From the NCBI GenBank assembly GCA_022539475.1, contig VCMS01000137.1, forward strand, positions 100,347-126,588: a DNA stretch of 26,242 bases, read 5' to 3'. The first letter of the stretch is position 1. The number at the start of each line of letters is the position of its first letter. Both the position numbers and the translations under genes were made by a program. The notes beneath the pieces are model-generated. The model did no database searches. It saw only the letters and a list, made by a program, of their open reading frames with translations, and had not been told where the DNA came from. Positions 1 to 26,242 of the stretch are shown piece after piece. Source of the stretch: Gracilaria domingensis. Taxonomy: Eukaryota; Rhodophyta; Florideophyceae; Gracilariales; Gracilariaceae.

Positions 1-1
1 G

Positions 2-934
2 TTCAAGATCGCTTGTACCAAGAATGGGTTTTCAGAGGCAGCAGCCATGTGGTTGTTTCAATTCTACCCAACTGGTCAAACTGGAGCGTTGCTCCATAGC
101 CGCCTCCAAGGGAACACCATGGCGGTGGACGAAGACCAAACGGAAATGTTGACGACATACCCACAGGTGGTCAACTTCCTACTGGAAACCTATGCAACCG
201 ATGAGGTTATTCAGGAGGCGTACGCAGAGGTGCTTGCGTACCGCCAGCGCGCGGGACAAACCGAATTGGAATTCGCTCGCTCCCTATGGGCATTAGCCTC
301 CCGCTGTGGAAGCGTCTTTACTACCAAAAGGTTGAAATCGATGTACGCCAACAACGTGGCGAAGTCTATCCGATCACAGGTTCGCCACTACCTAGCTACC
401 AACCGCACGGTCGATTACAACGCACTAGCCCGCCATGCACAGGGACTAGGCGACACCGTTCGGTCAGGGGCCAGGAAAGACTCCGCACCACTTGGCAAAC
501 CATCGAAGGAGAAAGGAAAAACCAGGCGGTCAGTGTTTGACGTAGAGGAAGAGGAGACCACTACGGATTAGGCATCCACACAATACGCCTCCCAGGGTCA
601 CCCAGTCCACTTGGTGCACGCACAACCGACAACTCGATCGCACGGTAACACCTCCTGGTCCAGCTCGCTATCCAGCGAGCCACCCTCGAGGCAAACCTCA
701 GCTCCACCATCACAGGTATCCGTACCGGTCAGTCCAGTCCTAGCGGTGCCATTCAACCAATATGGTGATAGAGGACCACCCCCGCAGCAACGGAGTGTAG
801 CACCGACTGGAGGTCGTACCCCATCACGCGCGTCGTCGCTCGCGATGAAGGACCCCACAACCGGTAATCTCCTCTGCTGGTTCTGTTTATCGCCTCACCA
901 CTTGGCAACAGCGTGCCCAAGTGTGGCTCCGTAG
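2..934 (+). pseudogene. gag: Gag polyprotein (capsid-like region plus zinc knuckle), partial, one in-frame stop
   Basis: The frame is already open at the left edge, so the true start is upstream and outside the window. The first part resembles retrotransposon Gag capsid domains: a conserved Trp near base 50, then a Gln-rich helix region and the segment ELEFARSLWALASRCG around 265-315. A TAG at 569-571 breaks the frame. The same frame then stays open through a Pro/Ser/Thr-rich linker to a CCHC zinc knuckle (Cys-x2-Cys-x4-His-x4-Cys) at 875-916, which binds RNA during packaging. Gag stops at 932-934. Pol lies in the -1 frame and is open from 868, giving a 67-base overlap suited to -1 frameshifting. 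I see no classical slippery heptamer there. Confidence 0.85.
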
Positions 935-3900: not shown

Positions 3901-5418
3901 CTTTCGGGACACCCTGGAGCCACGCGGTTGTACTATACCCTTCGGAGGCAATTCTACTGGCCGCACATGGCTAACGACGTATATACTTATGTGGCTCAAT
4001 GCAATTCGTGCATTAAGACCCGAGGTGGTGTGAGGAAGCACAAGAAGTACGTGAAGCTATTCCCGGCGGCGGGGCCCCTGGAATTCGTCGCGATGGACAT
4101 ACTGGGGCCCCTAACAAAGACCTCGGAGGGTTTTTGCTTTGTAGTAATCATAACCGATAGGTTCACGAAGCTCACCAGGGCCATACCCGTGAAGAACCCA
4201 ACGGCAACGACACTGGCGACAGCCTTCTTGGAGAACTGGGTCTACCCATACGGTGCTTCTATGTACCTACTGACCGATAATGGTTCGAACTTGGTTTCTA
4301 AGTTCTTTGAGGCGGTTTGCACCATGCTAGGGGTCAAGCACTACTTTACTACGGCCTATTATCCGCAAACAAACGGCCAAGTGGAACGGTTCAATAAGAC
4401 TCTAATGGCACGCCTACGGCACTATGTCGAAGAGCACCAAACCACATGGTCGGAGTATGTCCAACCATTGACATATGCGTACAGCCTCCAGGTCCACGGG
4501 GTCACCCAAACAACCCCGTTTGACCTGGTACTTTCACGAACACCACACGGCATTATCGTCTAGCCCGGACCCGACCGCTCGGAAGCGGCAGGGACACTCA
4601 CACCTGCGAAGGTCAAGCGAAAGATACTCCGGAAGTTACGCGCCGCTTTGGCTGCTGCCAAAATCAAAATGACAGCAGCCCAAGAACGGTATAAAGCAGA
4701 TTATGACCGGACGGTGCGCAGAGTAACCAAAGTGGTAGCGGGAGACATGGTCTTCCTCGACGAACCACCAAAAGGTAAGCGACCGACCCCAGCGGAGATG
4801 GAAGACGACACCCGCATTGAGGAGGATATTAAATCTAAACTACTACCCAAGTCGACGGGACCATATAAGGTGATTCGCTCCGATGACCATTCCGCTACGG
4901 TCATAATGGATGGCTTGGAGAACACCGTCTCTATCGACAGGATTGCCAAGGCCGCACAAAAGACGGCACCGCATACACAAACAATAGGTGAGCCAACTCA
5001 GAGGGAAGTGCAAAGGGTAGAAACGTCTCCCATAGCCCCTCCTCTGACGAGTCGGCCGAGCGGTCAACCTTCCATCAGTGCCGTAACGGCTGATCCCACA
5101 ACCCAGGTGGCACAGGAGATCGAGCCACGGCGAGACCAACAGGTCACACCACCCACGAGGAGCCATGCACCCCAAGACCAAACGGAAGAGCCACACCCTC
5201 AAGTAGACACTCAGGAGTGTGCTATTGACACCATTGTAGGTCACGAACACACCACAAAGGGTATCCGCTACAGGGTAGGATGGTACGGATGGTCGCCAAA
5301 GCACGACTCTATGGAACCACCTGGTCATATCCCTAACAACTTCATCATCCGATACTGGCGCAAACAAGGGCGAACGCCCCCACCAACTGGGACTGCTTCG
5401 TGTGGTACGCATCGCTAA
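868..5418 (+). pseudogene. pol: Pol polyprotein: protease, RT, RNase H, integrase, chromodomain; five in-frame stops
   Basis: One reading frame covers all enzymes. Protease: LDTGAGPN with the catalytic Asp at 1327. RT: FTTLDAN motif near 2525-2545 and the YIDD catalytic box at 2722-2733. RNase H: TDVSD with Asp at 3178, then TEKECLA and RTDHDSLRWIL; its closing DALSR-type motif is altered to DAMFR. Integrase: an HHCC zinc site at about 3890-4020, then the DDE triad at Asp 4096, Asp 4276 and Glu 4384 (QTNGQVERFN). A GPY-type motif lies near 4858. A C-terminal chromodomain (about 5220-5385; YRVGWYGWSPKHDSMEPPG) would direct integration to marked chromatin. Stops: TAG 1885, TAA 2368, TAG 2857, TAA 3583, TAG 4561. 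The end at TAA 5416 abuts the polypurine tract and is probably the original stop. It is inactive as written. Confidence 0.92.
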
Positions 5419-5570: not shown

Positions 5571-6794
5571 TCAGGAGGTCTTGGCAGAACCACGGCCACA
5601 TCCGCGACCACGACCGGTCCCGCGACGGCGCCCACGGCCACGAGAGGTACGGCGAGACGACGCGGAACCTCCACGACCAGAAGACATCGACATAGGACCG
5701 GCGGAGCTTCCGCCTCCGCCGCTAGCGGCGCTCGCTGGCGCACCAGCACTTGGTAACGGAGTAGAGGCAGAAGGCCCTACTGGGGTGTCGCTGCTAACTA
5801 CCGGCATGGTGTTCGCAGGATCAGTGGGTGGATAGAAGGAAGGCGGCAAGCTAGTCGGAGGGATATCGCCAGAGGTCGGAGGAGGAGCAAGACCGCTGGA
5901 AGGCCCTGCACCAAGGGTCAGACCAGGTGGTGCCCCAACTCCCGAAGGCCCAGGACCAGCAAGCGCCATCGGAGCACTGGACGACGACGGAAGCGGAGCC
6001 GAGCGGAAACCAGTTTGGAAACCACTTGGTGCTCTCATCCCAGTACTGGCGGGAGGGAGAGGAACGTTATGAGGACCAAGCGGTGTATGTAAGGGTGCCG
6101 AAGGATCTGCACCAGGAGCTCCACCGGGCGGTTGATACGTTCCGAGACCACCAAAGCCTACCATCTGGGTCGCAGGCGCCGGAGACGTCGGGGCATACGG
6201 GTTGAAACTTTCCAAAGGGGGTCGATGCAGGGGTGCATGGCCTTCCACGAGGTTGCTCAGCTGATCAACATAGGCAATCACCTCACGGTAGAGATTGCGC
6301 TGAAAGTAGTCGCGGAACTGCCGCAACTCGTTAGTGCGCCGCTCATGGTGAGCGACCACGGGAAGCAAGTTTCTCAAGGTACCCACCGCGGTGAGGATGT
6401 CGTTTGGACCAAGACGGTTGAAGTGCACCATCGACGCGTGGTTGAGACGTGCCAGAGCGCCCCTAATCGCACCGCTGTCACCACCTGGGGGTACTGGGCT
6501 TACCGGGAGCGAATGAAAACCATCGCGGAGAGGCCCATGGGTTCCCCGGCCGGGGGAATGCGCCGCTGCGTGAGCATAAGGAGGACCACTAGGGATGGGA
6601 GCCGCCACACTGGTAGGAGGAGTGGCGTGTACGGGAGCCGAGGGAGGTAATGCAGGGGACTCATAGTTCTCGGCAGCCACCATCATGGTATCATCGTCAC
6701 CAAAGGGGTCCTCGACAGCCACATGCTTGTTCTGCAAGAGCACTATGCTCTGTACCTCAGGATCATAGACGTCCCAACTTGAGGGTCGCTCCAA
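5571..6794 (-). pseudogene. Unrecognised Pro/Gly/Ala-rich protein with Arg/Gly-Ser C-terminal tail (3' part of a frame-broken gene)
   Basis: This open frame of about 400 codons begins without a good start codon; the first ATG is at 6686. It overlaps the end of the upstream minus-strand frame by about 50 bases, so it is best read as the continuation of that gene after a frame change. Residues of roughly 105-190 are predicted helical and not low-complexity (ARLNHASMVHFNRLG, then a hydrophobic/charged stretch). This is followed by about 170 residues of Pro/Gly/Ser/Ala-rich linker and a tail rich in RGG/RGR and SR-like dipeptides, typical of RNA- or nucleic-acid-binding proteins. I do not recognise the family. 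A Gag-like protein of another retroelement is possible, but no zinc knuckle, protease or RT is present. Confidence 0.45.
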
Positions 6795-8329
6795 TTGTGG
6801 TTACTCACAGCCTTGAGGTAGTTGTCGAGTGGCTGAGCAGTATACTTCGTACCTTCCACAATGGCGGCAAGCCCCATCGCACGAATGTCTCCAATGACAT
6901 CAGTCGGAATGTGGAAGATACGACCAACTGGTTTAGTACCGCTGATGCCGACGGTCTTGTCAGGACAGCGTGTGCCCCAGGTCACACCCTCCACGGATGC
7001 CTGAAGGGCGAGAATCGCCACCATAACGGCCCATTCGCTGCGCGCAATCGACCAAACGGCGTACTCATTGTTCCTTTAGAGGACGATGCTACTTCCAAAG
7101 TACGCGAGGGCCGGAGGGGTGGGCACCTCCAACCACTGGCAAACTTCGTAGTGATCCCACCAAGACGGTCGGCTCACATACCACGACCGGCGGTTTTGGT
7201 CGCTCTGCGACCAGTATTCAACGTTGTGGAAAAGGTGCATCGTACGCGTACGACCGTGACGGTGACGGACACGGCTCTAGGCCATCGCATCGGTCGCCCA
7301 CCTGCCACAGTCTGTCCAGTAGTTGGTGTCTAGAAGGCGTTCGAACGCCACGTAATCGAGATTAACCTCGAGATAACCAGTTGGTTCGTCCAGACGGTGA
7401 AGAATGTCAACCAAGCGGCGGAAGTAATGGACCTCCCCGTCGCATGGGATGAGCGCGAGGTCCGACGGGATGGACACTGTGATGTAGTAGAGAAACTTCG
7501 TGTGCCTCTGCCGTGCGTGGAAACACTGCGGACGACCAAATCGGTTCTGCTTCTCACCCTGACGGGGTGGCGGAGGAGCCATCGGCACTGCCTCCAACCG
7601 ACGACAATCCCAGCGGGCAATGGCGCTGTACTGCGAGAGTTCCATATAGCGGAACCGCAAAGGACAGAACGAGAAGCTGATATGAAACGGCCAGTTCCGC
7701 GGAGCGACCATTTCGGCGGAGATGTCGGCAAACCGGGCGCCATAATGGGCGTGCGGCTGCCCGTGTGTCATGTTAAGGTCGTGCGGGGTGAGCTTCTGAG
7801 CCTCCACCGTGCCGGCGAAGGTCAAGGGTTTGATGTTGCTGGGACCAGCAGCGGCGGCATAAGGATCATACCCGCCGCCACGACCATATGGATCCTGACG
7901 AGCCCGGGTGCTAGCCCGAGTGGTCTGCTTGAAGATGCCGCCACCACGCCCGCGGGCTACCCCAGGGCTCTTCCCGGACATCCTAGACGCAGCAAGAACC
8001 TCTCGAACCGAGCGGGTGGTCTGCGGAGACGGAGATACCTCAGAGGTGGAGTCGCCCCTTATAGGGTCATAATGTGGCTCTTCGCGCACCACGAGGGTCT
8101 CGGCTTCCGGAGCGTCGGCGCCGGATGGAAGCGAAACCGGGGTACCGGCTTGGGATAGGCCACGGCGACGCCAGGACTCCACCAACTGGTACTCGGGCGC
8201 GTAAGGAGCGCCTGCATCGGAGGGGCGCCCCGCAGCGGTCAGGACGGGGGACACGCAGGCGTCACCCTCGTCCACGCGGCGCTCGAAGGTCATAGACCAC
8301 CCCGTAGAGGAGATCGACCGTTCACCCAT
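6743..8329 (-). pseudogene. Unrecognised GC-rich gene with two in-frame stops (5' part)
   Basis: The frame is open from upstream of 8425. The first ATG in it is at 8329 (MGERSISS). It has an acidic/Ser-rich N-terminal part, a basic Gly/Arg patch (VARGRGGGIF), then a Trp/Tyr/Phe-rich, globular-looking region including FHISFSFCPLRFRYMELSQY and LDEPTGYLEVNLDYVAFERL. A TAG at 7277-7279 and a TAA at 7076-7078 interrupt it. The same frame resumes after each and ends at 6743, where the neighbouring frame takes over. The base composition is visibly richer in GC than the flanking transposons, suggesting a different origin. I cannot assign a function. It could be a decayed host gene or an unclassified element gene. 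An intron-containing gene is possible, but I could not place convincing splice sites. Confidence 0.45.
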
Positions 8330-8361
8330 GAGGTTAGAAGTCGTGCAGCGGAAACCCCACG

Positions 8362-8568
8362 GATGACGGCAACCAAGACGGTAAGAGACGCAAAGCGCAC
8401 AACCCGAGAGGGAGCGAACTGACACGGAGGAGCGGTCACCGAACCAGGAAGGTCAGTGCGAGCCGGCGCCAGACGAGACTCACCCGTGAGGCACCACTTG
8501 GAATTAGCAACCCCGGAGGGTGCGGCGACGTCGACAACACCGGTCGGGGAAGATGACGGCAACCAAGA
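8362..8568. repeat. 17-base exact direct repeat, 190 bases apart
   Basis: GATGACGGCAACCAAGA occurs at 8362-8378 and again at 8552-8568, at the 5' end of the unrecognised minus-strand gene. The surrounding bases show looser similarity (CACCC[A/G]TGAGG near 8324 and 8482), suggesting an old local duplication of about 160-190 bases. Confidence 0.6.
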
Positions 8569-10604: not shown

Positions 10605-12379
10605 ATGCAGGCACATGACGTCGTTCCCGCTCTGAAAAAACACATCGCACATTCTCCAAACCCAGGAGTGATCTGGCATGATCCCACCACTACTGGTATA
10701 GACTCCTTCATCGGCATGCTTCAACTCTACTCCGATAAGTCCTCCACCACGCTAAAAAGCTCCTCTGTCACATCATACTCCCTCCATATTACGTTTCTCA
10801 ACTTCAAGGACTCTTTCCGCAGAAAATGTATCACACACCACCATACTCTCGTCGGCTACATTCCTACTTCCTTCACATCCTTCTCCGACGATTCTTCCTC
10901 CACCGACACCGACTCTTTGGAAATTGGCCCCTTGTCGTCGAACATAACTCGCGTTGTGCGCATGTAGCTCGTCCAGAAGTCCTTGCAAACTATTTTCAAA
11001 CCTCTGTACGACATATGCAAAAAAGGCTTCCCCTTCAGAGACGCCAAGGGAGTCCTTCGTCAGTGCCATCTCATCATCGCTAGCTATAGCGCTGACATTC
11101 CCGAAGCAAAGGATATTCTCGCTGTTCTCCATGGCACGAAATCAAACAAGCCCTTTCATAGATACCTTATCCCTCGTTCACAACGCAACGTCTATCAAGC
11201 CATTCTCAACGATCGAACTGTATCCCACACCTCTGCAACGAGAAAGAAACACCAAGATCTACTTGCCGGCTCTGAACAGGCTCTGCTCTCCCGCAGACCT
11301 TGAGTGGCAACGACCCTGAAAAATGAAGTTGTTCAACTACTCTAAACCACCTCCTTATCGACTTAGAAGTCCTTTCTCGAATCATTCCCTATTCTCAATG
11401 TCTCCGAGCTGCTCACTCCTTACCCAATCTTCTCCTTCAAGCCCCTCCATAAATTTCATCTCGGAATCTCCAAACTCATCAAACTTGCCTCGATTGAACT
11501 CCTCAAGTCCGATTCGCTTCACACTTCTGTTGGTTCTCAGGGAAAACCGAGGTCTTTCAAGACCGTTCGAACTTCTATTCTAAGCCACGCCAACGCCATT
11601 CTCGCCGACATTGAGCGCTCCTATCCGGCACCCGGACTTCACATCGACTTCTCCACATCCGAAAAAGGAAAATCTCTCAACATTTTCTTCGCGACAAACG
11701 GCATCAGGGGTATGTTGGAAGCCAAGGACTACCCTTCCCAACAGCTGAAGAACCTTCACGACATCAAACTCACTGTCGTTAATTCTGCATACGTTCTTAG
11801 CGGCTTCTGCCTCTCTCTCGATGATTACGATCGAGATCTTCGATGCATAAGACTGAGAAGGCCCGATGTACAACTATGTGAACGCATCTTCGCTACGACC
11901 TCCTTCGGACCTCCCAAGTTGTCTAAGTTCTCCACGGTTCTTGTGCACGGGACACCCCTTCCCAACTGTACGGTTTTCGCAGCGTGGTATGCAAAGTATT
12001 TGCATTGCTTCGCGTCAGGGACAAGACCTTAGACAACTCTAAATCGGAGCTCGCTTTCGTTCGTTTCTTCGAAGTGACAGAGCCCTTGGATAACGTTGAT
12101 GAGACTCTGAACTGTATATCACTCCGTCGGGCCACCGACGACGAGCATGATCACAACGTACATCCAAGTACGTCAAGGATGAAACCTCGTTCTGCTACGG
12201 TCTCTCCTTGGTTCGAGCTTATCCCGTTCTCCTCAATCAAAGGCTCCATACACGTCATTTGCCAAAACTACCCTGCCCGACCATTTTTCCCTCCCCTTCA
12301 CTGGCAATTCCACCGTTTCTACATTAACAGATTCTATCGTAACTCTCGAGCCCACATTCATCATACTCGTACTACGTAA
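10605..12379 (+). pseudogene. Plavaka-like DDE transposase relic (copy 1) with stops and a large internal deletion
   Basis: Recognisable homology to copy 2 starts near an ATG at 10605. LYSDKSSTTLKSSSVTSY holds the presumed first catalytic Asp. YSADIPEAKDILAVLHGTK holds the second, and FSFKPLHKFHLGISKLIK follows. Decay is clear: TAG 10965 (copy 2 has Gln here), TGA 11301, TAA 11343, TAG 11364, and a frame change between about 11985 and 12030. The paired Cys after the HGT motif are replaced by Phe and Tyr. After MLEAKDY (11712) about 690 bases are missing relative to copy 2, including the segment with the presumed catalytic Glu. The final part (RFYINRFYRNS) is retained. The N-terminal zinc-finger region of copy 2 is not recognisable here; instead a Pro-rich stretch precedes it. 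Non-functional. Confidence 0.8.
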
Positions 12380-12538: not shown

Positions 12539-14646
12539 TTAAAGGGAGTATACGCGATCCCGTGGGTCACAATACCCAATATAGTAATCCAATACGGCTC
12601 CAAGATGTTCCGTAATCTCTTCCATGAATACATCTTCTCGAACAGCTAGATATAGCTTCTTCTTAGACGGTATCCAGTATGCCACAATTCCCACAAGGTC
12701 ATCATTTCCATGGGGGTGGATCTTGAGGCATTGAGTCGTTCCTGAACTCCATTCCAGCTTCTGCTCCATTTTCATTTGTAAAGCCATCAGTATACTTGCC
12801 AACGCCGGTGCAACATACTTTCCGAAAACTTTGGTGGACAACACCTGCCTTTTACCCCCCCGCTCTCCTTCAAACTCTCTAGCTCGAACCACTGACGCGA
12901 TCCAAGCGTCTAGACGCGCCAACTGCACTATTGTGCCATCCACTGGGTCCTTGTCTCCCGCATTTCTTGAATCCTTTTGGTTCACATCGTAACCCAGAAA
13001 CTCCCGTAAGACCTGTAGGTTTAGAAAGTTTCTAAACAGCAAGTCTTGCGGCTTGTTCTCTTCGCCACGCATTTTGAACCCGGAAAATGATATGTCCTCT
13101 CTTTTGGATGTTCTCCATGTGGAGAGAATCTCACACCCTTTTGCATCTAGTGGCAGAAGCTTCTCCCGTAGTTCTTCCGCTTGTTTTAGGTATATACTCC
13201 TCTCCCTCTCATGAGATGGTGTCTTCACCAACATGTCATACCCTAGCCCCATCAACAAATTCTCCTTCGCATGGCGTTTTCGAACCCCCACCGCATCCCT
13301 CAAGGCCTGTTTCAACCTCTTCCGTAAGCACATGTCGCTAGTCAGCTGTCTGATGCAGTCTTCTTCCATCTTCATCTCCCGGATGGATTACCAACGAGGT
13401 TTCATTACCTGCGTCTCCACGATTTGCATCAGCAAGTTATGACCCGTACCACGAATCGATGGAGTATACGAACTCATCTCCATCGCGACCTCCATTGGAC
13501 AGCGTGGAACAATCTCTTTCCCATCAACGACCAGGACACTGTACTCAGTCTCAGGTCCGAGTGTCTCACTTCGATTCCCCCAGTTTCTCGCCGGTGAACT
13601 CATCTCGAAGCACAATTCCCTTTTCTCGTCTTTCGCGTATCGCAGTATGGACTCGTATACTCAATCTCGTATCTTTTCCTTCCCCTGTGCGAATCACGCT
13701 CCGTCCGTGTTGCTCCTCGCTTCAGTGCCTCTCGAAGTGATTGTATTAGAACATTTTGCTCCTTCACCTTTAGCTCTAGTTCCGTCACGCTTTTCTGTGT
13801 TATTCTTACGCTTATCTTCAGACTTTGATTATTCTCGGTTACTCGAAAGAGATCCGCTTTCAAGTCTCCAATCTTGTCCAACAGCTCGTAGCGTGGCGTT
13901 AGGCTTTCATCTTCTTCATCTTCTTCGTCTACACCAGCAAGAGCACGAGATGGAAGCGTACAGTTAATTTTCCGGCGACCTGCCACATTACGACCCTTTT
14001 CGTTCCATGTCTCTCTTGGTAATTCTGACCCCACCTCTGTCCGTTCCTTACACATCTCGCCAAAGGAAACCGAGTTCGAACCCTTCCTTCTCATTTGTTT
14101 GAACCTATTCTGCGATGGTACTACCGTACGAGGAGCAGGCTGTATCTCGTCGACTTCTTCCTCGTTCGGACGACGTTCGGAATGAATGGAATCGTTTTTA
14201 TTCCGGAAACTCTTCCTCGACGGTGCGGGCGCAGGTACAGACGACTGTACATTATCGACTTCTTCCTCGTCACTAGCACGATCGGAATGAAGATAATCGT
14301 TCCGATTTTTGATCTCCCTTCGCGATGTTGCGAGCGGACGTACAGTGGGCTGTATATCATCGGCTTCTTCTTCGTCCCTACTACGTAGAGGTTGAATGGA
14401 ATCGTTTGTAATGCGCCTCGTCCTACCAGGTGGGGTTGCTCTTTCATGTCCGTCCAACTCTTCTTCGATGACATTGTTTCTCAAATTTCTTGCTCGTGTT
14501 CCTTTCGCTTTCGTACGTCTCTCGGCACCATTCTCTTCCACATTCGCATCGTTGATTATTCTTGGCACTTCCTCTGCAGCCATGTGTGGTGTAACCCGCC
14601 CTCCCACTGAGCTGTGATGTGGTAACACTACTTCGCTCTCTGTCAC
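12539..14646 (-). pseudogene. ORF B relic (copy 1): basic, three-fold tandem repeat, coiled-coil accessory protein
   Basis: This leftward gene is convergent with the transposase relic and 160 bases from it. The N-terminal 75 residues are basic and polar. There follow three 35-residue tandem repeats (14104-14418), then a predicted coiled coil of about 60 residues near 13850-13690. A conserved region includes ARNWGNR and DMCLRKRLKQALRDAVGVRKR, and the protein ends in a globular part with FLGYDV and VQLARLDAWI. Copy 2 matches it across these blocks. A frame change lies near 13610, and a TAA at 13388-13390 sits where copy 2 has Glu. The first codon shown is GTG; weak similarity to the copy 2 N-terminus continues to about 14840 but is interrupted by stops. 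The family is unknown to me. Confidence 0.7.
14104..14418 (-). repeat. Three 105-bp (35-residue) tandem repeats inside ORF B of copy 1
   Basis: Each unit carries a [R/N]xxNDS/Y[I/L] motif, then an acidic core (DEEEADDIQP, DEEEVDNVQS, NEEEVDEIQP), then a Pro/Ser segment ending in SRR, SRK or SQN. The ND dipeptides fall at residues 81, 116 and 151 of the frame starting at 14646, a strict period of 35. Confidence 0.85.
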
Positions 14647-15438: not shown

Positions 15439-15458
15439 TTACAAATACCTCTCCCATG
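15429..15458. terminator. Perfect 10-bp hairpin overlapping the SET-relic stop codon
   Basis: CATGGGAGAG (15429-15438) pairs with CTCTCCCATG (15449-15458) around a 10-base loop holding the TAA stop of the leftward SET relic. It could shape the 3' end of that transcript. No such hairpin was noticed at the end of the copy 2 gene, so a conserved role is not supported. Confidence 0.35.
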
Positions 15459-16545
15459 GATAGCTGGGTCCATAGTCTACGTACAGTTCGTCGTGTTCAT
15501 GAATATCCCTTGTAGCCGTCACCAACAGTAGTCTATAGCTTGCGAGTGTACCCAATGTGGTAGCTTGATGCTCGGAGGGCTGTCGAATAATAACGTTTGG
15601 TAAGCGGCCTTGGTAAGGCTTCATCTCGGCAAGATCCTTCTCTTCGTCCCCATCCCGGTACGAAGCATCACTGATGTAGCCCGCTATACAGAAAGGAGCG
15701 GGTACTACCCAGGCAATCTCAGTATTGATTTCGGAATCATAGTGAGGAAGCGTGCTGTACATATGCCCTTTCAGCTTCAGTTCCATGCAATACCTCCTGA
15801 AACGAGAAACGGTGGCACCGAGCACTCCGCTTCCGTATTTCATCTGTTTTGCTTGCGTCGGCTTATGTCATGATATACCAATGTCTCATAGAAGTACCCA
15901 ACAACCTCTCTTTCCGAGAACGATCTATTACTGAAAACTCCATCTCCACTTATGGGGTGTTTGATATTTGATTTCTTCCTGTACAACCATAAACCTGCTG
16001 CTTCAGTGGCGAGCAAACTCTGTACATCCACCCTCTCCAATGTGCCCTGGAGATTCAGAGGCCACTTGTGCACCGGTTTCTCCTTGTGCTGCGCGATGAG
16101 ACTCGGTTCTCTGCAAAACGTTGCGATATAGGAATTGATATGAAACGGGAAACATTGCATGGCGGGAATTCTTTCGGTGCGGTACATATACGCGAGGGTC
16201 TTTGCTTCCCTTCCGGGAACTTTGTCTGTACTAAATACGAGGCTTGAACGACCTCATTACTGACAGTTATTCTTGCGTTGAACTCGTTACCCCAAACCTT
16301 CCTCGCATACACCACTACAGCATTGTGTTCAGCATGAGCGAAGCACTCCTCATCCCTCTCACACCCAATGAAGCGTCGGGGCTCTTCCATTTCCATGCAC
16401 GCCAAGGCACCGGAAAAGGTTCCACTATAGGGATCAACCACAACGTCTCCGGGATTTGAGAACCTGGCAATGAGTTCCTTTAGCAGTGCCCTCGGTTTCT
16501 GTTCGGAGCGAACCTGAACCGAGCGTATTTTGGAACGCTTCTTTA
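15439..16545 (-). pseudogene. DNA methyltransferase-SET relic (copy 1), lacking the DPPY half
   Basis: The gene begins, as preserved, just before SEQKPRALLKELIARF. This continues into DVVVDPYSGTFSGALACME and RRFIGCERDEECFAHAEHN, the SAM-binding motif I region of a beta-class amino-methyltransferase. The part that would carry DPPY is absent upstream, where stops appear. Downstream, after a frame change near 16190, comes a linker and the SET domain: GDGVF, then FYETLVY, a second frame change near the T4 run at 15847-15850, PAPFCIAGYISDASY, and DELYVDYGPSYPW at the end. Compared with copy 2, the Gly of the FYG motif is Glu and the Asn of YIND is Ser; both positions are usually conserved in SET enzymes. 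Inactive in both domains. Confidence 0.8.
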
Positions 16546-17041
16546 CGCTCTAACGGAGTCCTTCACCAGCCTCCAGATGCGGAACCTGATCGATAATGGA
16601 GTAATGCTCGCGTCTGTCTCTTGCAGATGCTAGTTTTTGGCGAGGGTCGTCCAGAAATTGGCAAGGGTCGTCCAGTAAATTTTTTGAAAAAATATCGAGA
16701 TCAATTATTTCAAAATCTGCAGATAATTGCTTGGGTCGTCCAGAATCGCTGTGCAGTAAATACTGGTGGGTTTTCCACTCGTGCTAGTTCTTTAGTCGAG
16801 GGCTACCTGAACTGTATTTCGCGAAGTCTAGGTTCAGTTTCCATTAAGGTGCACATTACACGATACCTTCTGCGGAATGATACCCTGCAACGCATGGAAT
16901 ACTAGTGCTAGTACAGATGATGCCCATTATGAAATCATACCGTTTTATTCGTATCTATTCTTCTATCGACCGCTTTTGCTAACCACTACTTCGCTATATT
17001 ACATGTACCATTTCCCCATGATGGATCGGGTGTAGGCGCAA
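16546..17041. other. Right flank of copy 1 with subterminal motifs
   Basis: No supported gene. GGGTCGTCCAG occurs three times in the same orientation (16644-16654, 16665-16675, 16733-16743). TGCTAGT occurs at 16628, 16782 and 16906. A TTTTTTGAAAAAA self-complementary stretch lies near 16680. These are likely subterminal repeats at the methyltransferase side of the element. Confidence 0.5.
16644..16743 (+). repeat. GGGTCGTCCAG, three direct copies
   Basis: Three exact 11-base copies within 100 bases in AT-rich context, at the right end of copy 1. They could be protein-binding subterminal repeats or mark the terminus. Confidence 0.7.
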
Positions 17042-17194
17042 TCTGCGGCAGATGCCGCAGAGGGCACCTGCACCATAGTGCTGGATCGGTAGAACACATA
17101 CGCACTCCGAGAGGATGAGGCGCGAAGCGCCTCATCCTCTCCGTTCCTCATGTAGGGAACCATGCCCAGATGCATGGTTCCCTACTTGAGGAAC
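17042..17194. repeat. Cluster of three strong palindromes
   Basis: First: TCTGCGGCA / TGCCGCAGA at 17042-17050 and 17053-17061. Second: a perfect 15-bp stem, 17109-17123 with 17127-17141 (GAGAGGATGAGGCGC), loop of three bases. Third: a perfect 14-bp stem, 17152-17165 with 17172-17185 (GTAGGGAACCATGC), extended by 8 bp (17143-17150 with 17187-17194) after a single T-T mismatch. No ORF covers the region. It lies at the junction between the two transposon copies. Confidence 0.9.
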
Positions 17195-17453
17195 CTGCAC
17201 CTGCAACTCGTGAGCTACGTACGCATCAAAAGTCATTTACCTGTATACGCAAGCAGAAAGTATCCATAAGTTAGTCAATGATCCGTTAGATACATTTGAA
17301 ATGCGATGGAACGTACCATTGATAAAACAAAACAGAAACGTTGCGCTAGAAAAGTCGAGGGACCTGGTAACTCGCAAACGGAAGAAGAAGCAGGAAAGGG
17401 ATCGGTTAGATTACAAGCCCACCATATCATCGTAAACCGCGAAAGGTGTCGAA

Positions 17454-17950
17454 GCGAGAACTCACAAGCAACGACACCAAGAATACCCATGCAGCAAACA
17501 TACCGCAAAATGCGATAAACGAGAGAGCAGCCTATGTCGCAACCAAGTACCAGAATCGACTATCCCGCAAGCCAGTCAACCAAGATCGCCAATACAAGAA
17601 GATCAACGTAAGGCGCGAGAAGAGAGGCGAGTCTATGAGGCAACCAAGTCAAACCATATCGCCAATGCACCAAAAGTAACGCAAGACGCGATAAGAGAGA
17701 GACCATCCTATGGCGCAACCTAGTCAACCAAGATTGCCATTGATGAACCTATCGCCCGAGCCAGTCAACCAATATCAACCAATATCGCCAATACACCAAA
17801 AGCAGCGCAAGACGCGAGAAGAGAGAAGAGTCTATGGCGGAACCAAGATCGCCAACAAACCAAAAGTAGCGCAAGATGCGAGAAGCTAGAGACGCCTATG
17901 GCGCAACAAAGTGAACCAAGATCGGCAATACCGCGTGATAGGTTACACGA
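17454..17950 (+). repeat. Degenerate tandem array in the left flank of copy 2
   Basis: A module GCGA[G/T]AAg..gag..., CTATGgCGCAACC, (a)GTCAACCAAGATCGCCAATAC, CAAAAGtAGCGCAAGA recurs. Module starts (GCGAxAA) lie at 17454, 17512, 17615, 17688, 17814 and 17878, with irregular spacing of 58-126 bases. The stretch 17195-18315 holds no supported gene apart from this array. Confidence 0.7.
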
Positions 17951-18315
17951 GCAGTCAGAGATCGATCTTGAGAGACGAAATGAAACTGGTTGCGTACTTA
18001 CAGTCGTTGTGGACGTCGGAAGAAATACAAAGGACGCACGTCAAATAGTGGTTACCTTCAATCACGTCAATGTTAGTAGCAAGACGTAGAACAAGATGGA
18101 ACATATCGTAAGCAGAACGTAGTTGAACAAATGGAACGAGTTGGAGGCTGAAAACGGGAACCCGGTAACCCAAAGCTTATTTTCTGCCGTTTACATGTCG
18201 AATAGCGCGAAAAAACGTGGTGAGGATGGGTTAGTTTAGAGCAAAGATACATAGAAGAATATGGAAGAGAACCTACGAAAAGACTGCACGGAATACATCC
18301 GTGAGATACGGATGA

Positions 18316-18390
18316 CTCCGTCCTACTTTTTTCCGCCCTCTACTTTAAGGAACCTCCATAAAGTACAGGGAGGAAAAAAGAAGGACGGAG
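18316..18390. repeat. 35-bp imperfect hairpin with 5-base loop
   Basis: The arms 18316-18350 and 18356-18390 pair at 31 of 35 positions, with four isolated mismatches and a loop AACCT. The compact long stem resembles a small-RNA precursor or a foldback remnant. It is about 370 bases upstream of the transposase start of copy 2, in non-coding DNA. Confidence 0.8.
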
Positions 18391-18624
18391 CGGAGTATAA
18401 CGCGAGGATGTGGATGGCACGGATCACGACGGTAAGGGAAGGTCGGACGTCGGAGGCGCGGCGGCGGCGGCGGAGGGAAGAGATTTATTTTTCTGTGCGA
18501 GATTGGACAGGTGTACAGCGTACAACGTTGCGAAACCACAGGTTTATAACCAGTGGTAGATAATACGAGAAGTACACCCTTGTGTTGAGGTCGACGTGTA
18601 CCTACGTTCCTTTTTGAACGAAAG

Positions 18625-18649
18625 CACGTGATTTGAACTCAAAATATAT
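18625..18649 (+). promoter_or_regulatory. Possible transposase promoter of copy 2 (CACGTG and TATA-like box)
   Basis: A CACGTG palindrome at 18625-18630 precedes an AAATATAT stretch at 18642-18649. The TATA-like box is too close to the ATG at 18664 but about 110 bases before the ATG at 18760, which supports the later start. This is motif-based only. Confidence 0.3.
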
Positions 18650-18759
18650 TCTCCGTTCTCAGCATGACGTCGATCTTGACTGTCGCTCGACCTCCTTCTC
18701 CCTTCGGACGCCCTTCCCTTGCAGTCTTTGTCGTCGTTTCTCGTTCAGTTCTTCTTCCC

Positions 18760-21700
18760 ATGGTCTACTACTGTACACATAAGAAGCGTGGGTGCCCCTT
18801 CGTTACTCGCCGAGGAGTCTTATCCCTTCAACAGCATGTCAACCATTGCCCGTTTCGTCTGAAAGCAGCGCTGGAAGACGACAATAGCCGGCCCATTCGG
18901 AGAAGCAAGCGTCTCAAGCTTTCCGCACCCGCGCCCGCATCTTCCGAAACGGTCACTCCCCTTGTCGCCTTCCCGAGCCTCCAGTGTCCGAGGACATCGT
19001 CGACCCCACTCCGTGCGCCCCTCCCATTCCGGAACTTCGCATTGTGTTTCTCCTTCCCCGGGTCCCGCGTCATTAGAGCGAGAACACGGAAGCAGTTCCC
19101 GCCCAGTGCCTTCTGAGGAGGCCCTCGGTGATTTGCATATGGATTATCTCACGGTTTGTCTGGCTTCAGTAGCTTCCAACCTTGGTCATCGTGAGGCGGA
19201 CGAGCTAATTGGGCTACTTCGGGACCCGCGATTCTCGCAAAAGCGATTCAACGAGACCATAACAAGTTCCAAGCGCTGTACAGAACTGAAGAAGGCCATT
19301 TTCGAACGATACGCCTCAAAGGACGGTTTCAATCGCAGAACTGTCTCGCCAGAAGGATGTAAGTTCAGCGCCACCCTCTACACGAGAGACCCCGTTCAGA
19401 CACTTGTGAAACAGCTCCAGTTGGCTAACAACGAAAACACATTCTTCCACCCTATACCTCAGACCCACTCCACGAAAATATCTCACCCCATGTCCGGCTC
19501 TCTCGCAAGAGACGCCACCTCAAAACTTAAGGAAATGGTCATGGGCTCTTTGGATAGTAGAATAGTGTGGTACTCCCAAGAAATAAGTTACAGTGAATCT
19601 TTCGTAGGTCTTCTGCAGGTATACACCGATAAGTCTTCAACAACTCTAAAGCAAACATCGGTTACCGCCTATCCTCTTCACCTCATATTTCTCAACTTCT
19701 CCGACCAGCTTCGCCGTAAGTGTATCCGTGATGACCTCACAGTAGTGGCATACTTCCCTACCACACTGATCGAGGTTTCCGCATCTGAAGCAGACGCAAT
19801 GCCATTTGTTTCTAGCAAGTCTCTACGCGAGTCCAGGATGCAAATCCTTCAAGAATCTCTTCGTCAAGTCCTGGAGCCCATTCTAAATCTCACGCAGAAA
19901 GGTTTTCAGTTCATCGGCGAAGACAAACTAAGTCGAGTGTGCCATCCTCTGCTTGCAAGTTATTGTGCGGATATTCCTGAGGCTAAGGACATTCTGTCTA
20001 TTCTTCATGGAACCAAAACGGAAAGCCCGTGTCATAGATGCAAAGCCCCTCGCTCATCTTTATGCAGTCCTATTCCCACCTCATTCAACGGACGTTCTCA
20101 AAAGCACACGAAAAGCATCCGAAAGACATACACAGCTATCTTGCAACATGCACAAAAAGACGAGGCGGAAAGACGTCCACGTCGTGCGAGGGAGAGGAGA
20201 TCTCAAGCGGATACTCTGATGCGTTCAAATTCCATATCTCTCATTCCTTCGTTCCTCGAAACTTCCGTAAGCCTTGGAATGATCCCGGGATTGTCTCCAT
20301 ACAGTCTGTTCTCATTCGAACCATTACACAACTTGCATCTCGGCATCTCAAAGTTGATAAAAACGGCCACAATCGAGAGACTGCAGTCAGACACCCTGTG
20401 CACCACATTAGGAACATCTGCATCGCGTTCATTTCGAACGATACGCACCCACTCCTCAACCATGCAAACGCAATTCTAGCTGCCATAGAACGCGATTCTC
20501 CTGCCAAAGGTTTACATATCGATTTCTCCACGCAGGAGAAAGGCAAATCTTTGAATGGTATCTTCACGAAAGACGGTCTCCGTGGAATGCTGGAGGCCAA
20601 AAACTACAAAGCACTTGACATGGTCTTTCCCTTCATAGGAGCATTCTTTGACATATGCTGTGGAGAACAGGACGTTGCCCCAATCACAACCGTTTTCTCT
20701 CAGTATTCGGACTTGCTCTCGACCTTATTCAGATACAATCGTGACCCGTATTGGACTGAAAGCTCTCTCCTGTGTCTAGTTCGGAGATTGAAGCCTTCAA
20801 GCGTTCCGCAACAAAGACTCTGGCGGATTTTCATCCCTCCAGACTGGGAACTCTGAAGTTTCATCTTCTCGATCATCTCGTGGACGATATTCGCCGTCTG
20901 GGAAGTATCAAGTATTACGACGCAGGCATATACGAACATGCACACCTGCTATTTAAAAGACACTACAAAAAGACGTCCAGAAGAACAGCAACGGCTGTGG
21001 AGGAGACTATTCGCTCCATTGAGCACGGACATGTTAGAAAGCAATGGAATGGCAATACTCCTTACCAGCGTAATCCAGGTTTACCAGGAACTTCCACACA
21101 GCTTCCTCGGTTTGCAATGAGAGGGCGTTCTTTCACTTTACGAGCTCTTCAACATTGTGTTTCAAGTATGTCCAGTTCAAAAACATGGACTGCTGTTAAA
21201 GAAATGTTCTCAAGTACGGACACAAGGTCGATTCTTGATCAAATTGGTGAACAGGCCCTTCCTCCTTTCCTCAGTCTCGTGAAAGAAACACTGGATGAGC
21301 ACTCTATTACATACTTCCCAGAAAAGACAAGGATAACTCTGGTGAATTCGGCCGTCGTGAAAGGCGGTTTCGTTCCGACTCTTGAACACTTCGATTCGTC
21401 TTCTAAGGCACTTAAGCTGGGACGACCCAAATACCCCATCATCCAACGTGTCTTCGCTTCTCCAGCATTTGGTCCCAGTAGAAAGCCAAAGTTTTCCACT
21501 GTATTGGTAAGCGGAGAAGATTCAGAGACTTGGGTTGCCCAGGTAGTCGCTCTGATTCGAATATCTCTCCTTGATTCTGCACTTACCGCACCAGAGGTGG
21601 CATTCGTCCGGTATTTCGAGGTTTTACCCCCCGCAACAAACATCGACCACATATTGAAATGCATATCTTTACGGTGGGCTACAAAGATGAAAAGAACCAC

Positions 21701-21934
21701 ACTCTTCCGTTCCCTCGTCATTCCAAAGCGGAGACTATCGTAGAGTTAACTCCTTGGTACGGGATGGTTCCGGCTTCTGCACTACAGGGAACTGTCCATG
21801 TTGTTCGATCAAACTACCCTGCTCCACCTTTTTGTCCTCCACTTCAATGGTTCCAACACCGATTCTACATCAATCGATTCTATCATGATTCAGATGAAGG
21901 ACCAACTGAGCACGTTGATCTTGTACAGCCTTAA
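18760..21934 (+). pseudogene. Plavaka-like (tnp2/CACTA superfamily) DDE transposase, copy 2, near-complete but frame-broken
   Basis: I start at ATG 18760 (context CCCATGG), leading directly into a Cys/His zinc-finger-like motif (YYCTHKKRGCPF ... HVNHC). A Pro/Ser linker follows. The catalytic core resembles fungal Plavaka transposases: VYTDKSSTTL...AYPLHLIFLNF with the first Asp near 19628, CADIPEAKDIL and the CHRC pair near 19967-20040, FEPLHNLHLGISK near 20315, and KFHLLDHLVDDIRRLGSI...YEHAHLLFKRHYKKTS near 20862-20985, supplying the probable catalytic Glu. The end (RFYINRFYH) matches copy 1. The frame changes near 18950-19050, 20455, 20775 and 21678. It ends at TAA 21932, overlapping the ORF B stop. 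DDE transposases excise and join element ends. The frame breaks may be real or due to assembly. Confidence 0.8.
21931..21934. other. Overlapping convergent stop codons (TTAA)
   Basis: The tetranucleotide TTAA carries the transposase TAA on the plus strand (21932-21934) and the ORF B TAA on the minus strand (21931-21933). The two genes thus end tail-to-tail with no spacer, so their transcripts must overlap in the 3' UTRs. Confidence 0.85.
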
Positions 21935-23671
21935 ACATTAAGGGCTCCATCTTCTACATGTTCACCTTGTGGTGCCTTTTCTTGTGATCCTGTGTTAATT
22001 CCGAAATCGTTCATGTCCATTTCCTTGAACTCCATATCCCCTTCCTCGCATTCACCAACGAAGCAATCGCTAATAGACCCCAATCTTCGGCTCACACTGT
22101 CAATAAAAAATTGTTCTTTCACAGTGAGGTAAAGTCTTCCGTTCGACGGCATTCGATATCCAAATGTAGCCTCTCTCATGTCATTACCAAGAACCTTAGT
22201 CCAATCTTCCGTTGTCGTTCCAAAATTATGAAACTCGCTGGAATTGGTCCTCAAGACATGTTGCCTAACATCCCCCAGAACATTCTTTAAACACAGAGGT
22301 AGCAGTTCAGCAAACTTCTTTGTAAACAGTTTCTGTCTCTGGCCACCCCTTGACACATCCGTACTTAGAAGGCTCACAACCGTCAACACCCAAGCGTCCA
22401 AACGTGCGAGCAACAGTATTGTGCCATCTAAAAAGGTGCCCGTATCCTTGTCTTCCACATCATACCCAATAAACTCCTTCAGCACTTGTACCCCGACACG
22501 GTTTCGGAAGAACAAGTCTTGATCTTCCGTCGGCATATCCTCGACATTGTCCGCATTGGAGTACTTTAGACGAACAAATGGGGCTTTCTCCACCATGAAG
22601 TGTTCGGTACACCATTTTCGTCAAAACGCAGTATGTTCTCCTGCGCTTCCTTCAACTGCATTGTGAGTTCGTCAGCATTCTCTTCTACCAGCTTTGTTCT
22701 TCTCCAAATCAGATCGTACCCCAGGAGCAGAAATAGTTTATCCCTCGTATTTCTCTTACGAACGCCCACGACGTCACTCATGGTCTGCCGCATTCTCTGC
22801 CTAAGGCACATATCTGCACAAAGTTCCAGTATACACCTGTCGGTAAGAGATGCTTTTCTAATACCTTCCCAGCTCAACTCCTTCAACTCGCTTTCAACCA
22901 TTTTCTTCAGCAAAGCATCTGGCCCCCCTCTACCGACGGTGTGAACATGCCAAAACTGCCCAAGAGCTCCACGGGGTTTTTAGGAACCATGTATGAACCA
23001 CCTTCCTCCGGCTCAATAAGCCCTTCCCCACTCTCAGTTGCGTCTTCCACCTTCTCGGCACGGTTACCCCAATTTCGGGTGAGCGACTCACCTTCGAGCC
23101 ATAGCTCACTTGTTTCTCTCCTTGCCCACGTCAGCATGTTGTGATACACTGCTCGAGCAACCCCTCGAAACTCGTCGCACACCTCAATTTTATGCTTCTT
23201 TCGACCTGTCTGCCCAGGTTCACCAGCACGTGTACTCCTATCTCCCTCCTGTTTCAGTGCCCCTCTTAGCCCTTCAATGACTAGATCCTTCTCTTCAAGC
23301 CTCTTTTTCAAAGCCGTACTCTGCTCTTGGGCGACCTTCACTAGAATTCCCCGAACCATCAAGTCCTCTTGTAGCGTCTTAACCTTTTCTTTCAAGCAAT
23401 TCAGTTCATTTAAAAGATCAGGTCTGTTCATAGAGCTTGAATTCACACCAGTTTGGATATCTTCCGTTATTTCCCTAGCTTCTTCGGCGACAGGCCCCGG
23501 TAATGCCGCAGGATTCGGTGTTATTTCGTTATCGGAACTATCCTCATGTGCCATAGCCTTAGCCACGAGAGGCTGCAGGCGTTCTGTGTCCACCCTTGGC
23601 ACGGCTCCGAGCTCCAACTCCCGTGTATGTCCTCCTCCATGGCATGGTATATCAGATGAATTGGGCCTCGT

Positions 23672-24031
23672 ACGAGCTGCAACGGCCCCCGTTCTGGAAA
23701 GAGGGGAAGGTCGAAAAGTAACTCGTCTATCAGTTGTCTCTCGATTTCTTATTGTGTTTCTGCCTTGTCCGGACCCATTGCGAGGCATGATACGATTCAT
23801 AGCGGCCCCAGTTCTAGAAGAGAGGGATGGACGTGACGATCTTAATATACTAGGACTCTCACGACTTCTCGTCATTGTCCCTTGTTGTCCAGATCCACTG
23901 GGCGGCGTAACCCGCGCCCCAGTAGCTCCGGTCTTCGATATCGGCCGGGGACATGAAGGTTTTGGTGTCATACGAACCTCTTCGGTTCCAGTTGTCATGC
24001 CCTCCTGTCCTGACCCGCTTGGCCGAGTTAC
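23672..24031 (-). repeat. Three 120-bp (40-residue) tandem repeats inside ORF B of copy 2
   Basis: Each unit has R[V/I]xPxxGSGQ, then a polar Arg/Thr-rich stretch, then a PSxxSRTGA-type end. GSGQ falls at residues 104, 144 and 184, a strict period of 40. The repeats occupy the same place as the 35-residue repeats of copy 1 but have a different sequence and length. Confidence 0.85.
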
Positions 24032-24325
24032 CTCATCTTCTTGAGGAGCAGAGACAGATGCACGATTTGCATTATCGGCAGTTGACGGCACGACATCGTT
24101 CGCTGATCCACGAATTCTTGACGCAATCCCGGAAGACGCTCCGCTGCGAGATGGGCGAGAGAGTCCTGTAGAAAGACGCCCACTGACTCTCTCCTTCGTC
24201 GAGGACGACTTCCGTTTAGGAAGTGCGGTGCTTGTAGCCTGATTCGTATCATCCGATGCTCTTCTCTTCTTCTGTCCACTCTTGTTCCGCTGCGTACTAT
24301 TTCGCTTTCTCGGCGTTATACCCAT

Positions 24326-24573
24326 GGTGTGGAGATAAACAGGGTAATGAAACGAAATTGTTGGGGAGGGGGGGAGGGGGTGGGGGGGGGTGCATGGTTC
24401 AGATATTCCGGGAGACTCCGCAGTTCCTGCTTTTTAGGAATTTGAGGTGCCCAATGGGTCGCAAATATCGCCGTTACAGATGAAGAGCTCCAGTGTACAT
24501 GTACAACAACGCGTATTGCAGGCAGCTGCAACACTCACAAGCATATTTACTTTGTATTCGCTACTGAACTCAT
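24326..24573. promoter_or_regulatory. Spacer upstream of ORF B (copy 2) with a G-rich tract
   Basis: This 248-base spacer must hold the leftward promoter of ORF B and the 3' end of the methyltransferase-SET gene. The plus strand carries 26 G in 28 bases at 24363-24390 (runs of 4, 7, 5 and 9 or more), which could form a G-quadruplex on the strand opposite the ORF B message. No other gene is supported. Confidence 0.45.
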
Positions 24574-26242
24574 CTATTGCTCCAATGTCAGAGCCCAGTC
24601 CCAGGCGTACTGCTCTCCGTAGTCGAAATACAACTCTTCGCCCCTCTCAATATCTCTTACTGCTCTACAACGAAGTAGAGCATAGTTAGAAAGGTCTGAC
24701 TTGAACTGTATCACGGACTTCGCTTCCACCACCTGCACATTGGCACTTCGAGTCCTGTTTGACCGGGGCTCCGATAAATCGGGATCCCCGGCATGATATC
24801 CGGCGTCGTTAATGTAGCCCCCGATACAAAAAGGCGCCGGGACAATGTAGACTTCGCTCTCCTTTCTATCCTGAGCCTGTCCTGGTCTGTTCCTCAGGTG
24901 CAGAAACTCCGTACCAGTCACAGTGACCATCATAGAAAACAACTTGTACCGCACTGGAGTTGCTCCGAGACAGCCACTTCCATACGTTAAGTGTCTTTCC
25001 TTCCGGTTCGTCAGATCCGTGTATACCAAAGTTCCATAGAAATGACAGATAGTTTCCCCAGCCAATATCTTATGTTCCGTGAACACCCCCATACCAGCAC
25101 GGGGATGTCGGATCTTAGAAGATGCTATATGTAAGCGATATCGATTGGCTTCAACAGTCAACAGCATATGCATATCCATAAGATTCAGAGCTCCTCGGTA
25201 CTTCTCCTCCCAAAGATCTACAGTACGCTCTCCACACTTGTCGACAAAGTCCCAGTCCTTCCAGTATCTTCCTAGGAACTGAGTAATATGTCCAGGCATC
25301 ACTTGGTACTGGGGGTAACCAAATGGAGCCTCCCATTCAAGCCGACCTCGGTCCCGATGTGGAACCCGTTCATAGGTCGTTGAAGCCGCATCCACCACCT
25401 CCTGTTCAACCAGGATGTCATTCTTCCCCCCCGAATAACTTCGGCCATAAGAGTCGTTAGATGGTGCTTCGCATGGCTGAAACATGGCCTATTCTTCTCG
25501 CACCCCAAGAACTTCCTATGCTTTGTCAGCGATAGGCACGCCATACCCGTAGAAAAAGTTCCCGCGAACATGTCCATGACAAGATCACCCGGTCTTGTGA
25601 AGCGACATATCAACTCCTTCATCAACTCCCTCGACTTCTGCTCCGGTCTCATGTACTGCCCACCTGGTACTGAGCTACCTGGCTCATGTACCTTCCATGT
25701 CAACCACTCCCCCGCCTCGGTTTGGGCACCCGGTCAATTACATTCCTGTTAGCCGGGAAAGTGGAAGGAATGAAATTGTTCTCCTCAAATGGAGTAAGAC
25801 TGGCTTCCTCCGATGGTCGCAATCCACGCTTCACCCCATGAACGGCGTACTCCGTTACGGGCTGTATCCCAAACTTCCGTGGATTCCCTCCAACATTACT
25901 GCGATCCCGGATGAACACCAGTGGATTCGCATCCACTTTAAACGAAGGCATGAGTTCTGGTTTACCTTCGCTTCCAGCTTCATCTTTCGTACTCGCCGTT
26001 TCCGAAAGTATCCTGTGCCACACATGAAACTGTGCCATGGCACAGAATATAATGAAGTGCCCACCTGACCGAAGCGCGGAACTTATTAAGTCAGCCGTAC
26101 GGATCATGTCTTCCTCACTGAAGACATCGTGACCACTATTCCGTTTGTTCCTCTTCCTTCGAGTGTTAAAGGGAGGGTCTGTTAGGACAAGCTGTGCCTC
26201 ACCCCATAAAATCTCACTCTGATTCACAACGTTTCGTTGTGT
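24574..26242 (-). pseudogene. DNA amino-methyltransferase-SET fusion (copy 2), partial at right edge, two homopolymer frame shifts
   Basis: The frame is open to the window edge, so the N-terminus may be missing. First domain: LVLTDPPFNTR (motif IV, near 26180), GGHFIIFCAMAQF, then after a shift RPEQKSRELMKELICRF and LVMDMFAGTFSTGMACLSL with FLGCEKN (motif I, near 25580-25500). DPPF before the FxGxG-like motif is the order of beta-class bacterial N6-adenine/N4-cytosine methyltransferases. Second domain, after another shift: GMGVF (25095), HFYGTLVY, GGYINDAGY, and GEELYFDYGEQYAW (about 24640-24595), the core SET motifs. No post-SET cysteines follow; it ends at TAG 24574. Shifts sit in the C5 run at 25709-25713 and the C7 run at 25426-25432. 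All key residues seem kept, so the protein may be functional if the shifts are artefacts. Histone and DNA targets are unknown. Confidence 0.85.

Follow-up and report, generated by a model that had tools for sequence, protein, structure and literature searches.

A DNA methyltransferase-SET fusion gene in a transposon with a Plavaka-type transposase in the red alga Gracilaria domingensis

Results

Gene content of the locus

We analyzed a stretch of 26,242 nucleotides of the Gracilaria domingensis genome (hereafter, the window) in which two DNA transposons, elements A and B, each carry a transposase gene on the plus strand and, on the minus strand, genes for an accessory protein and for a fusion of a DNA methyltransferase with a SET domain (Table 1). 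An earlier note on this DNA had described one such fusion gene, at the right end of the window. That gene is present, but it is one of two, as element A carries another from a different subfamily (family 2). To the left of both elements, positions 1-5418 (plus strand) hold a Ty3/Gypsy-type pol with reverse transcriptase, RNase H, and integrase in successive open frames, and positions 5571-8452 (minus strand) hold, in a stretch of higher G+C, ORFs of 409 and 391 aa that match no Pfam family at E up to 0.01.

Table 1. Features of elements A and B in the window
Feature	Coordinates	Strand	Basis or remark
Transposase of element A (family 2), degraded	10611..12346	+	tblastn of P0003, 43-46%
Accessory protein of element A	12557..13660	-	tblastn of P0002, 35%
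Fusion gene C-terminal half, element A (family 2)	15442..16606	-	tblastn of P0009, 83-94%
Element B (family 1)	16611..26242	.	right end beyond the window, behind an assembly gap
Left terminus of element B, CGTCTGTCTCTTGCAGATGCTAG	16611..16633	+	exact copies counted genome-wide
Subterminal tandem repeats, 73- and 64-bp units	17566..17911	.	TRF
Plavaka-type transposase, frameshifted in the window copy	18637..21931	+	PF18759, E 2e-19
Accessory protein, frameshifted in the window	21934..24534	-	tblastn of P0002 (868 aa), 84-100%
Methyltransferase-SET fusion gene	24577..26242	-	tblastn of P0001 and ORFs
Beta-class N6_N4 amino-methyltransferase domain	25482..26194	-	DPPF before FAGTF
SET domain	24616..25095	-	

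The fusion gene of element B corresponds to residues 500-1055 of a 1055-aa frame (tblastn of P0001); a run of N starts directly past the window end (seen in locus L009), leaving the N-terminal half of the gene unassembled there. The motifs named in the earlier note are all present on the minus strand and in the order that it gave: DPPF (26168-26179), the FxGxG-like FAGTFSTG (25545-25568), and, in the SET part, GMG (25087-25095, its GxG), FYG (25033-25041), YIND (24805-24816), and DYG (24616-24624). Profile searches matched both domains, in the window as well as in an intact copy. For the window copy, N6_N4_Mtase (PF01555), which makes up the methyltransferase half, reaches E 6.4e-12 in its C-terminal half and 0.0095 in its N-terminal half (alone below the cut-off), and SET (PF00856) reaches E 2.1e-8. 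The note had further placed both domains in one polypeptide. This does not hold for the window copy, which is split over three frames (25700-26242, 25299-25733, and 24574-25488) by two frameshifts relative to full-frame copies, near 25.71 kb and 25.43 kb, but it does hold for nine other places in the genome, each of which has a single 1055-codon frame.

Intact copies and subfamilies

With the SET part of the fusion as query, 717 candidates were found in the genome (680 contigs, 77.9 Mb), of which 130 were scored; these yielded at least 134 matches, including four short second pieces. The stop-free 1055-codon frames occur at 9 of these 130 scored places; three were read whole and six up to the edge of the fetched stretch. 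In P0001, the intact protein of family 1, N6_N4_Mtase covers residues 516-753 (E 3.6e-15) and SET residues 883-1042 (E 1.4e-7), both over the Pfam cut-off.

Five subfamilies of the fusion gene are present in this one genome, and in families 1, 2, 4, and 5 both Pfam families are over cut-off within one open frame. Family 2 includes a frame of 1121 codons (P0009, locus L040), in which SET exceeds its cut-off only just; family 4 is represented by a 634-codon frame with both domains (L035), and family 5 by frames of ~1170 codons at three places on contig C382. Both copies of family 3 that were read (L037 and L042) break within the SET domain. The family-5 copy that was read (L043) has EPPY instead of DPPY, and this family is possibly domesticated or altered in its catalysis. 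Taking these frames together with the homologues described below, we regard the fusion as real with near certainty.

The copies closest to that of the window share its defect. Eight places, the window included, are identical over a 304-residue SET frame, and all have the frameshift between the domains. A run of G lies at this point (window 25424-25434; L001-L011), with seven G in eight places and eight G in two; the search pattern for the run matched these 10 places, counting L005, L009, and the window as one place, and did not match the other fetched copies. With seven G, SET no longer shares the reading frame of the methyltransferase, and the two full-frame copies that have the run carry eight G. 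Barring assembly errors, the most alike, and presumably youngest, copies would then have multiplied with the fusion already broken, and, as they carry a split gene, any function would act in trans. Programmed slippage at this G run (near 25.43 kb) was considered and rejected, since ordinary frameshift decay or assembly error suffices.

Element B and its linkage to the fusion gene

The claim that a DDE transposase resides in the same element was borne out by the neighboring gene, which encodes a Plavaka-type protein. Its window copy matches the open frame P0003 at 94-100% over five main segments (tblastn); P0003 itself matches PF18759 at E 1.7e-18, and 24 of 24 transposase homologues among the matches listed carry this family. 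The accessory protein (P0002), encoded on the same strand as the fusion gene, is coiled-coil-like by eye and has no match in Pfam or NCBIfam at E up to 1.

The left boundary of element B, at 16609/16611, is common to the window, L010, L016, and L022. The terminal sequence CGTCTGTCTCTTGCAGATGCTAG is found unchanged at 465 places in the genome (247 + 218) and at 0 in the reversed control, and in the rows printed the bases directly upstream of it are nearly all unrelated, with one identical pair. Four family-2 loci match the window up to 16606-16610, and family-1 copies match it from 16609/16611 onward. These boundaries show that element B has inserted into the fusion gene of element A at ~16611, so that a transposon is nested in a gene of its relative. 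The degraded transposase of element A matches PF18759 at E 0.0003, under the family cut-off.

We measured linkage on the 28 fusion genes of contigs C1-C68, where the listing of termini is complete. At 19 of the 28, a left terminus in the expected orientation lies on the expected side at a distance of no more than 10 kb; in these 19 it is 5.0-8.9 kb from the SET match, on the 3' side. On the 5' side, at least 10 of the 28 have within 7 kb a divergent ORF4, an abundant large frame (L049:674-1338, L050) of up to ~1300 codons (one listed at 2760); counts of ORF4 are lower bounds because 150 of 406 candidates were scored. The opposite-orientation control gave 0 of 28 for the left terminus or ORF4 on those sides. 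Nine of the 28 are without a terminus and 18 without a listed ORF4, some of them at contig ends. The fusion gene is, we conclude, very probably part of the transposon.

In two loci that have both the fusion gene and ORF4 (L044 and L045), the divergent promoter region has a ~100-bp inverted copy upstream of both genes, with G+C-rich palindrome arrays between. ORF4 contains a faint ParB-like stretch, with one PHROG match at E 0.0033. We did not adopt a ParB identity for it: this single match is a hint only, without Pfam, NCBIfam, or PDB-sequence support. Genome-wide, ParB_N gave 0 matches, with the control positive in 10 of 14 genomes.

The left end of element B (CGTCTG) matches neither the TGT..ACA termini of PlavakaA nor the CATCA..TGATG termini of PlavakaB (both from PMC12730594), and we therefore name the element by its transposase and file it in neither lineage. 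Plavaka transposons are characterized by target-site duplications of 2-3 bp; a ~480-bp piece in L022, possibly a fragment, is compatible by eye with 3-bp repeat flanks.

Homologues, motifs, and selection

Two protein searches, the second of which scored the 7994 candidates sharing most words, yielded at least 29 distinct homologues. By precomputed family tags, all 29 carry PF01555 and 18 also carry PF00856; the earlier note had proposed searching other genomes for the same two-domain order, and it recurs there, at 25-41% identity. One example, from Chondrus crispus, is 1000 aa long, bears the name adenine specific DNA methyltransferase, and has both families over cut-off. Closest to P0001 among the matches listed is the environmental protein P0004 (41% over 96%). 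In the tree, P0004 groups with family 4 and not with family 1 (support 100/100), which makes the fusion older than the split of these families.

Of the 29 homologues, 27 keep the DPP[YF] motif (all but P0032 and P0033) and 23 the SET tyrosine (all but P0005, P0007, P0008, P0016, P0030, and P0031), with P0008 stopping ahead of SET and so missing the whole SET part. Since five of these six form one clade in the tree, SET has decayed there and, separately, in P0016. SET is thus dispensable in some lineages, and the methyltransferase is the more constant part of the fusion. The window copy has the IND and DY of SET, as do families 1, 2, and 4.

Signs of purifying selection can be read from the aligned frames. 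For 20 family-1 open frames (L009-L028; frames of at least 300 codons, 136-190 pairs), pooled pN/pS is lowest in the methyltransferase (0.29, 171 pairs), followed by the SET core (0.37, 190 pairs) and the linker plus SET (0.39), and highest in the N-terminal region (0.54), values biased toward intact copies as the loci were fetched mostly for their long frames. Three more family-1 loci (L034, L038, and L039) were left unpooled; single pairs with these, or inside family 3, have dN/dS of 0.6-0.8, suggesting little constraint after insertion. Between families 2 and 3, dN/dS over the linker and first part of SET (157-162 codons) is 0.13, at a dS near 2 that is close to saturation.

Among PDB sequences, the methyltransferase is nearest to DpnA (M1.HpyAVI) and CcrM, and the SET part to KMT2A and its relatives. 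The predicted methyltransferase fold, taken from the relative P0004, matches beta-class N6_N4 enzymes, and a predicted structure likewise shows a SET fold. While the best SET matches include the H3K4 enzymes MLL1, MLL3, PRDM9, and SET7/9, SET8 and EZH2 match nearly as well, so likeness does not fix the target lysine. P0001 matched neither ParB families nor the chromodomain at E up to 1, and its N-terminal region matched no family.

We also looked for a source of the fusion. An origin of the whole in giant viruses or phages was set aside, as an IMG/VR scan gave 3 matches, all within the methyltransferase part; none of the 50 rows listed from BFVD covers both domains by row name. A scan of genome_contigs for a prokaryotic donor gave a single short match of 51 residues, on an archaeal contig, and on that account we name no donor.

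Methyltransferase genes of the host

Some host genes may escape the following searches because of introns or gaps in the assembly. The C5 cytosine methyltransferase family gave 0 matches in the genome, with 10 of 14 prokaryotic controls positive; MT-A70 also gave 0, but no control was positive either, so this absence is uninformative. With the SET profile, 150 of 311 candidates were scored: 8 reach at least 49.9 bits in long frames and are probably host genes, and 142 are at or below 38 bits, many of these coinciding with places of the fusion gene. A plastid-type set of phycobiliprotein genes on contig C680 identifies the host as a red alga.

Discussion

Relation to known systems

In SETMAR, a host SET domain is fused to a mariner transposase, without a DNA methyltransferase; as in our case, SET is tied to a DNA transposon. 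ParB plus N4/N6 methyltransferase accessory proteins are described in algal transposons, for example Sola1-1_Ec32 of Ectocarpus (PMC12477816, which refers to Iyer 2011 and Petroll 2025 for those of green and red algae). Compared with these, the fusion has SET instead of a ParB match, the faint ParB-like stretch being in the separate ORF4. The HarbingerS and MuDR transposons of Phytophthora carry SET genes (PMC12730594) and are similar in placing a SET methyltransferase on a DNA transposon; however, the transposase superfamilies differ, and the source passage mentions no DNA methyltransferase. According to the same source, fungal Plavaka and KDZ transposons carry TET/JBP genes, so that there, too, a Plavaka-type element bears an enzyme that edits epigenetic marks, although theirs is a dioxygenase acting on 5mC whereas ours would be two methyltransferases in one. 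In bdelloid rotifers, transposons are the proposed targets of N4CMT (structures 8s9m-8s9o) and SETDB1 (PMC8885841). N4CMT is a host gene with SPPY and a chromodomain reader, in contrast to the transposon gene described here, with DPPF/Y and a SET writer. Transposon-borne SET genes and ParB-methyltransferase proteins are known, then, and the methyltransferase-SET combination itself may be a new variant; our full-text literature searches did not find it described, and Petroll et al. 2025, outside their coverage, may describe it.

Proposed function

The best explanation as a whole, to which we give about an even chance, is that of a transposon accessory enzyme with dual DNA and histone methylation that establishes a permissive state. 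A polypeptide of ~1055 residues would combine a helical N-terminal region, a beta-class amino-methyltransferase of bacterial/phage type, and a SET domain. The predicted product of the methyltransferase is N6-methyladenine; N6A enzymes are described as having DPPY/F and most N4C enzymes SPPY (PMC8885841), and an active N6-adenine enzyme seems somewhat favored. The SET domain is predicted to methylate lysine. Recruited to element DNA by its N-terminal region, by a partner (the divergent ORF4, for example), or by both, the protein would methylate adenines of the element and lysines on neighboring histones. The resulting permissive (6mA/H3K4-like) state would leave element genes expressible and ends usable, an anti-silencing effect that would also extend in trans to defective copies. 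This purpose is comparable to the role proposed for TET/JBP of fungal transposons (PMC12730594).

That the role is permissive rather than repressive we hold tentatively, at somewhat less than even chances. In a survey of unicellular eukaryotes, whose main text does not mention red algae, 6mA coincides with H3K4me3 and transcriptionally permissive regions; the same source reports that in Acanthamoeba H3K4me3 was lowered with 6mA almost unchanged (PMC12695648), which counts against permissive coupling.

Alternative explanations

The same enzyme could instead put repressive marks on copies of the element and so keep copy number tolerable. The high copy number and the scarcity of full frames would fit such self-restraint, as would the bdelloid precedent, in which silencing is linked to a beta-class methyltransferase and to SET proteins (PMC8885841). 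But the bdelloid genes are the host's and are directed against transposons, whereas in our case the transposon itself carries the gene, and the SET matches include enzymes of activating marks; we find this reading rather unlikely.

Adenine methylation could also control transposition itself. Dam methylation gates Tn10/IS10 transposition, and methylation of terminal or subterminal repeats might similarly govern transposase binding or couple excision to replication, with the SET part acting on the transposase or another protein. The subterminal tandem repeats of element B and the adjacency of the methyltransferase and transposase genes speak for gating. The idea itself has no need of the SET domain, and we judge it unlikely.

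More improbable still is a mostly dead or structural enzyme, its methyltransferase fold serving DNA binding and its SET domain protein contacts, with no catalysis: the missing SET tyrosine in 6 of 29 homologues and the EPPY of family 5 point that way, but catalytic motifs are kept in most homologues and pooled pN/pS is <0.4 in both domains. Finally, an assembly or frame artefact joining two abutting neighbor genes, to which the different frames of the two domains in the window copy and the seven most similar places would lend themselves, is ruled out for practical purposes by the 1055-codon frames at nine other places, the longer frames of families 2 and 5, and the same domain order in other organisms, including Chondrus crispus.

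Conclusions

DNA and histone methylation are normally carried out by separate enzymes, and their coupling is debated. If the reading of a dual, permissive accessory enzyme is true, the element may write its own chromatin state. In its widest form, which we consider possible but doubtful, a transposon family would have evolved and spread a single enzyme that marks the family's own copies with both 6mA and a histone modification, and this parasite-supplied epigenetic system would possibly provide its host, where the search for C5 cytosine methyltransferases gave no match, with its principal DNA methyltransferase and most numerous SET family. Along with bdelloid N4CMT, the fusion would make two cases in which a beta-class bacterial methyltransferase is attached to a chromatin domain in a eukaryote. 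One polypeptide with both catalytic domains, mobile and kept in many subfamilies, would offer a direct test case for joint 6mA and histone methylation, and for how transposons manage their own chromatin.
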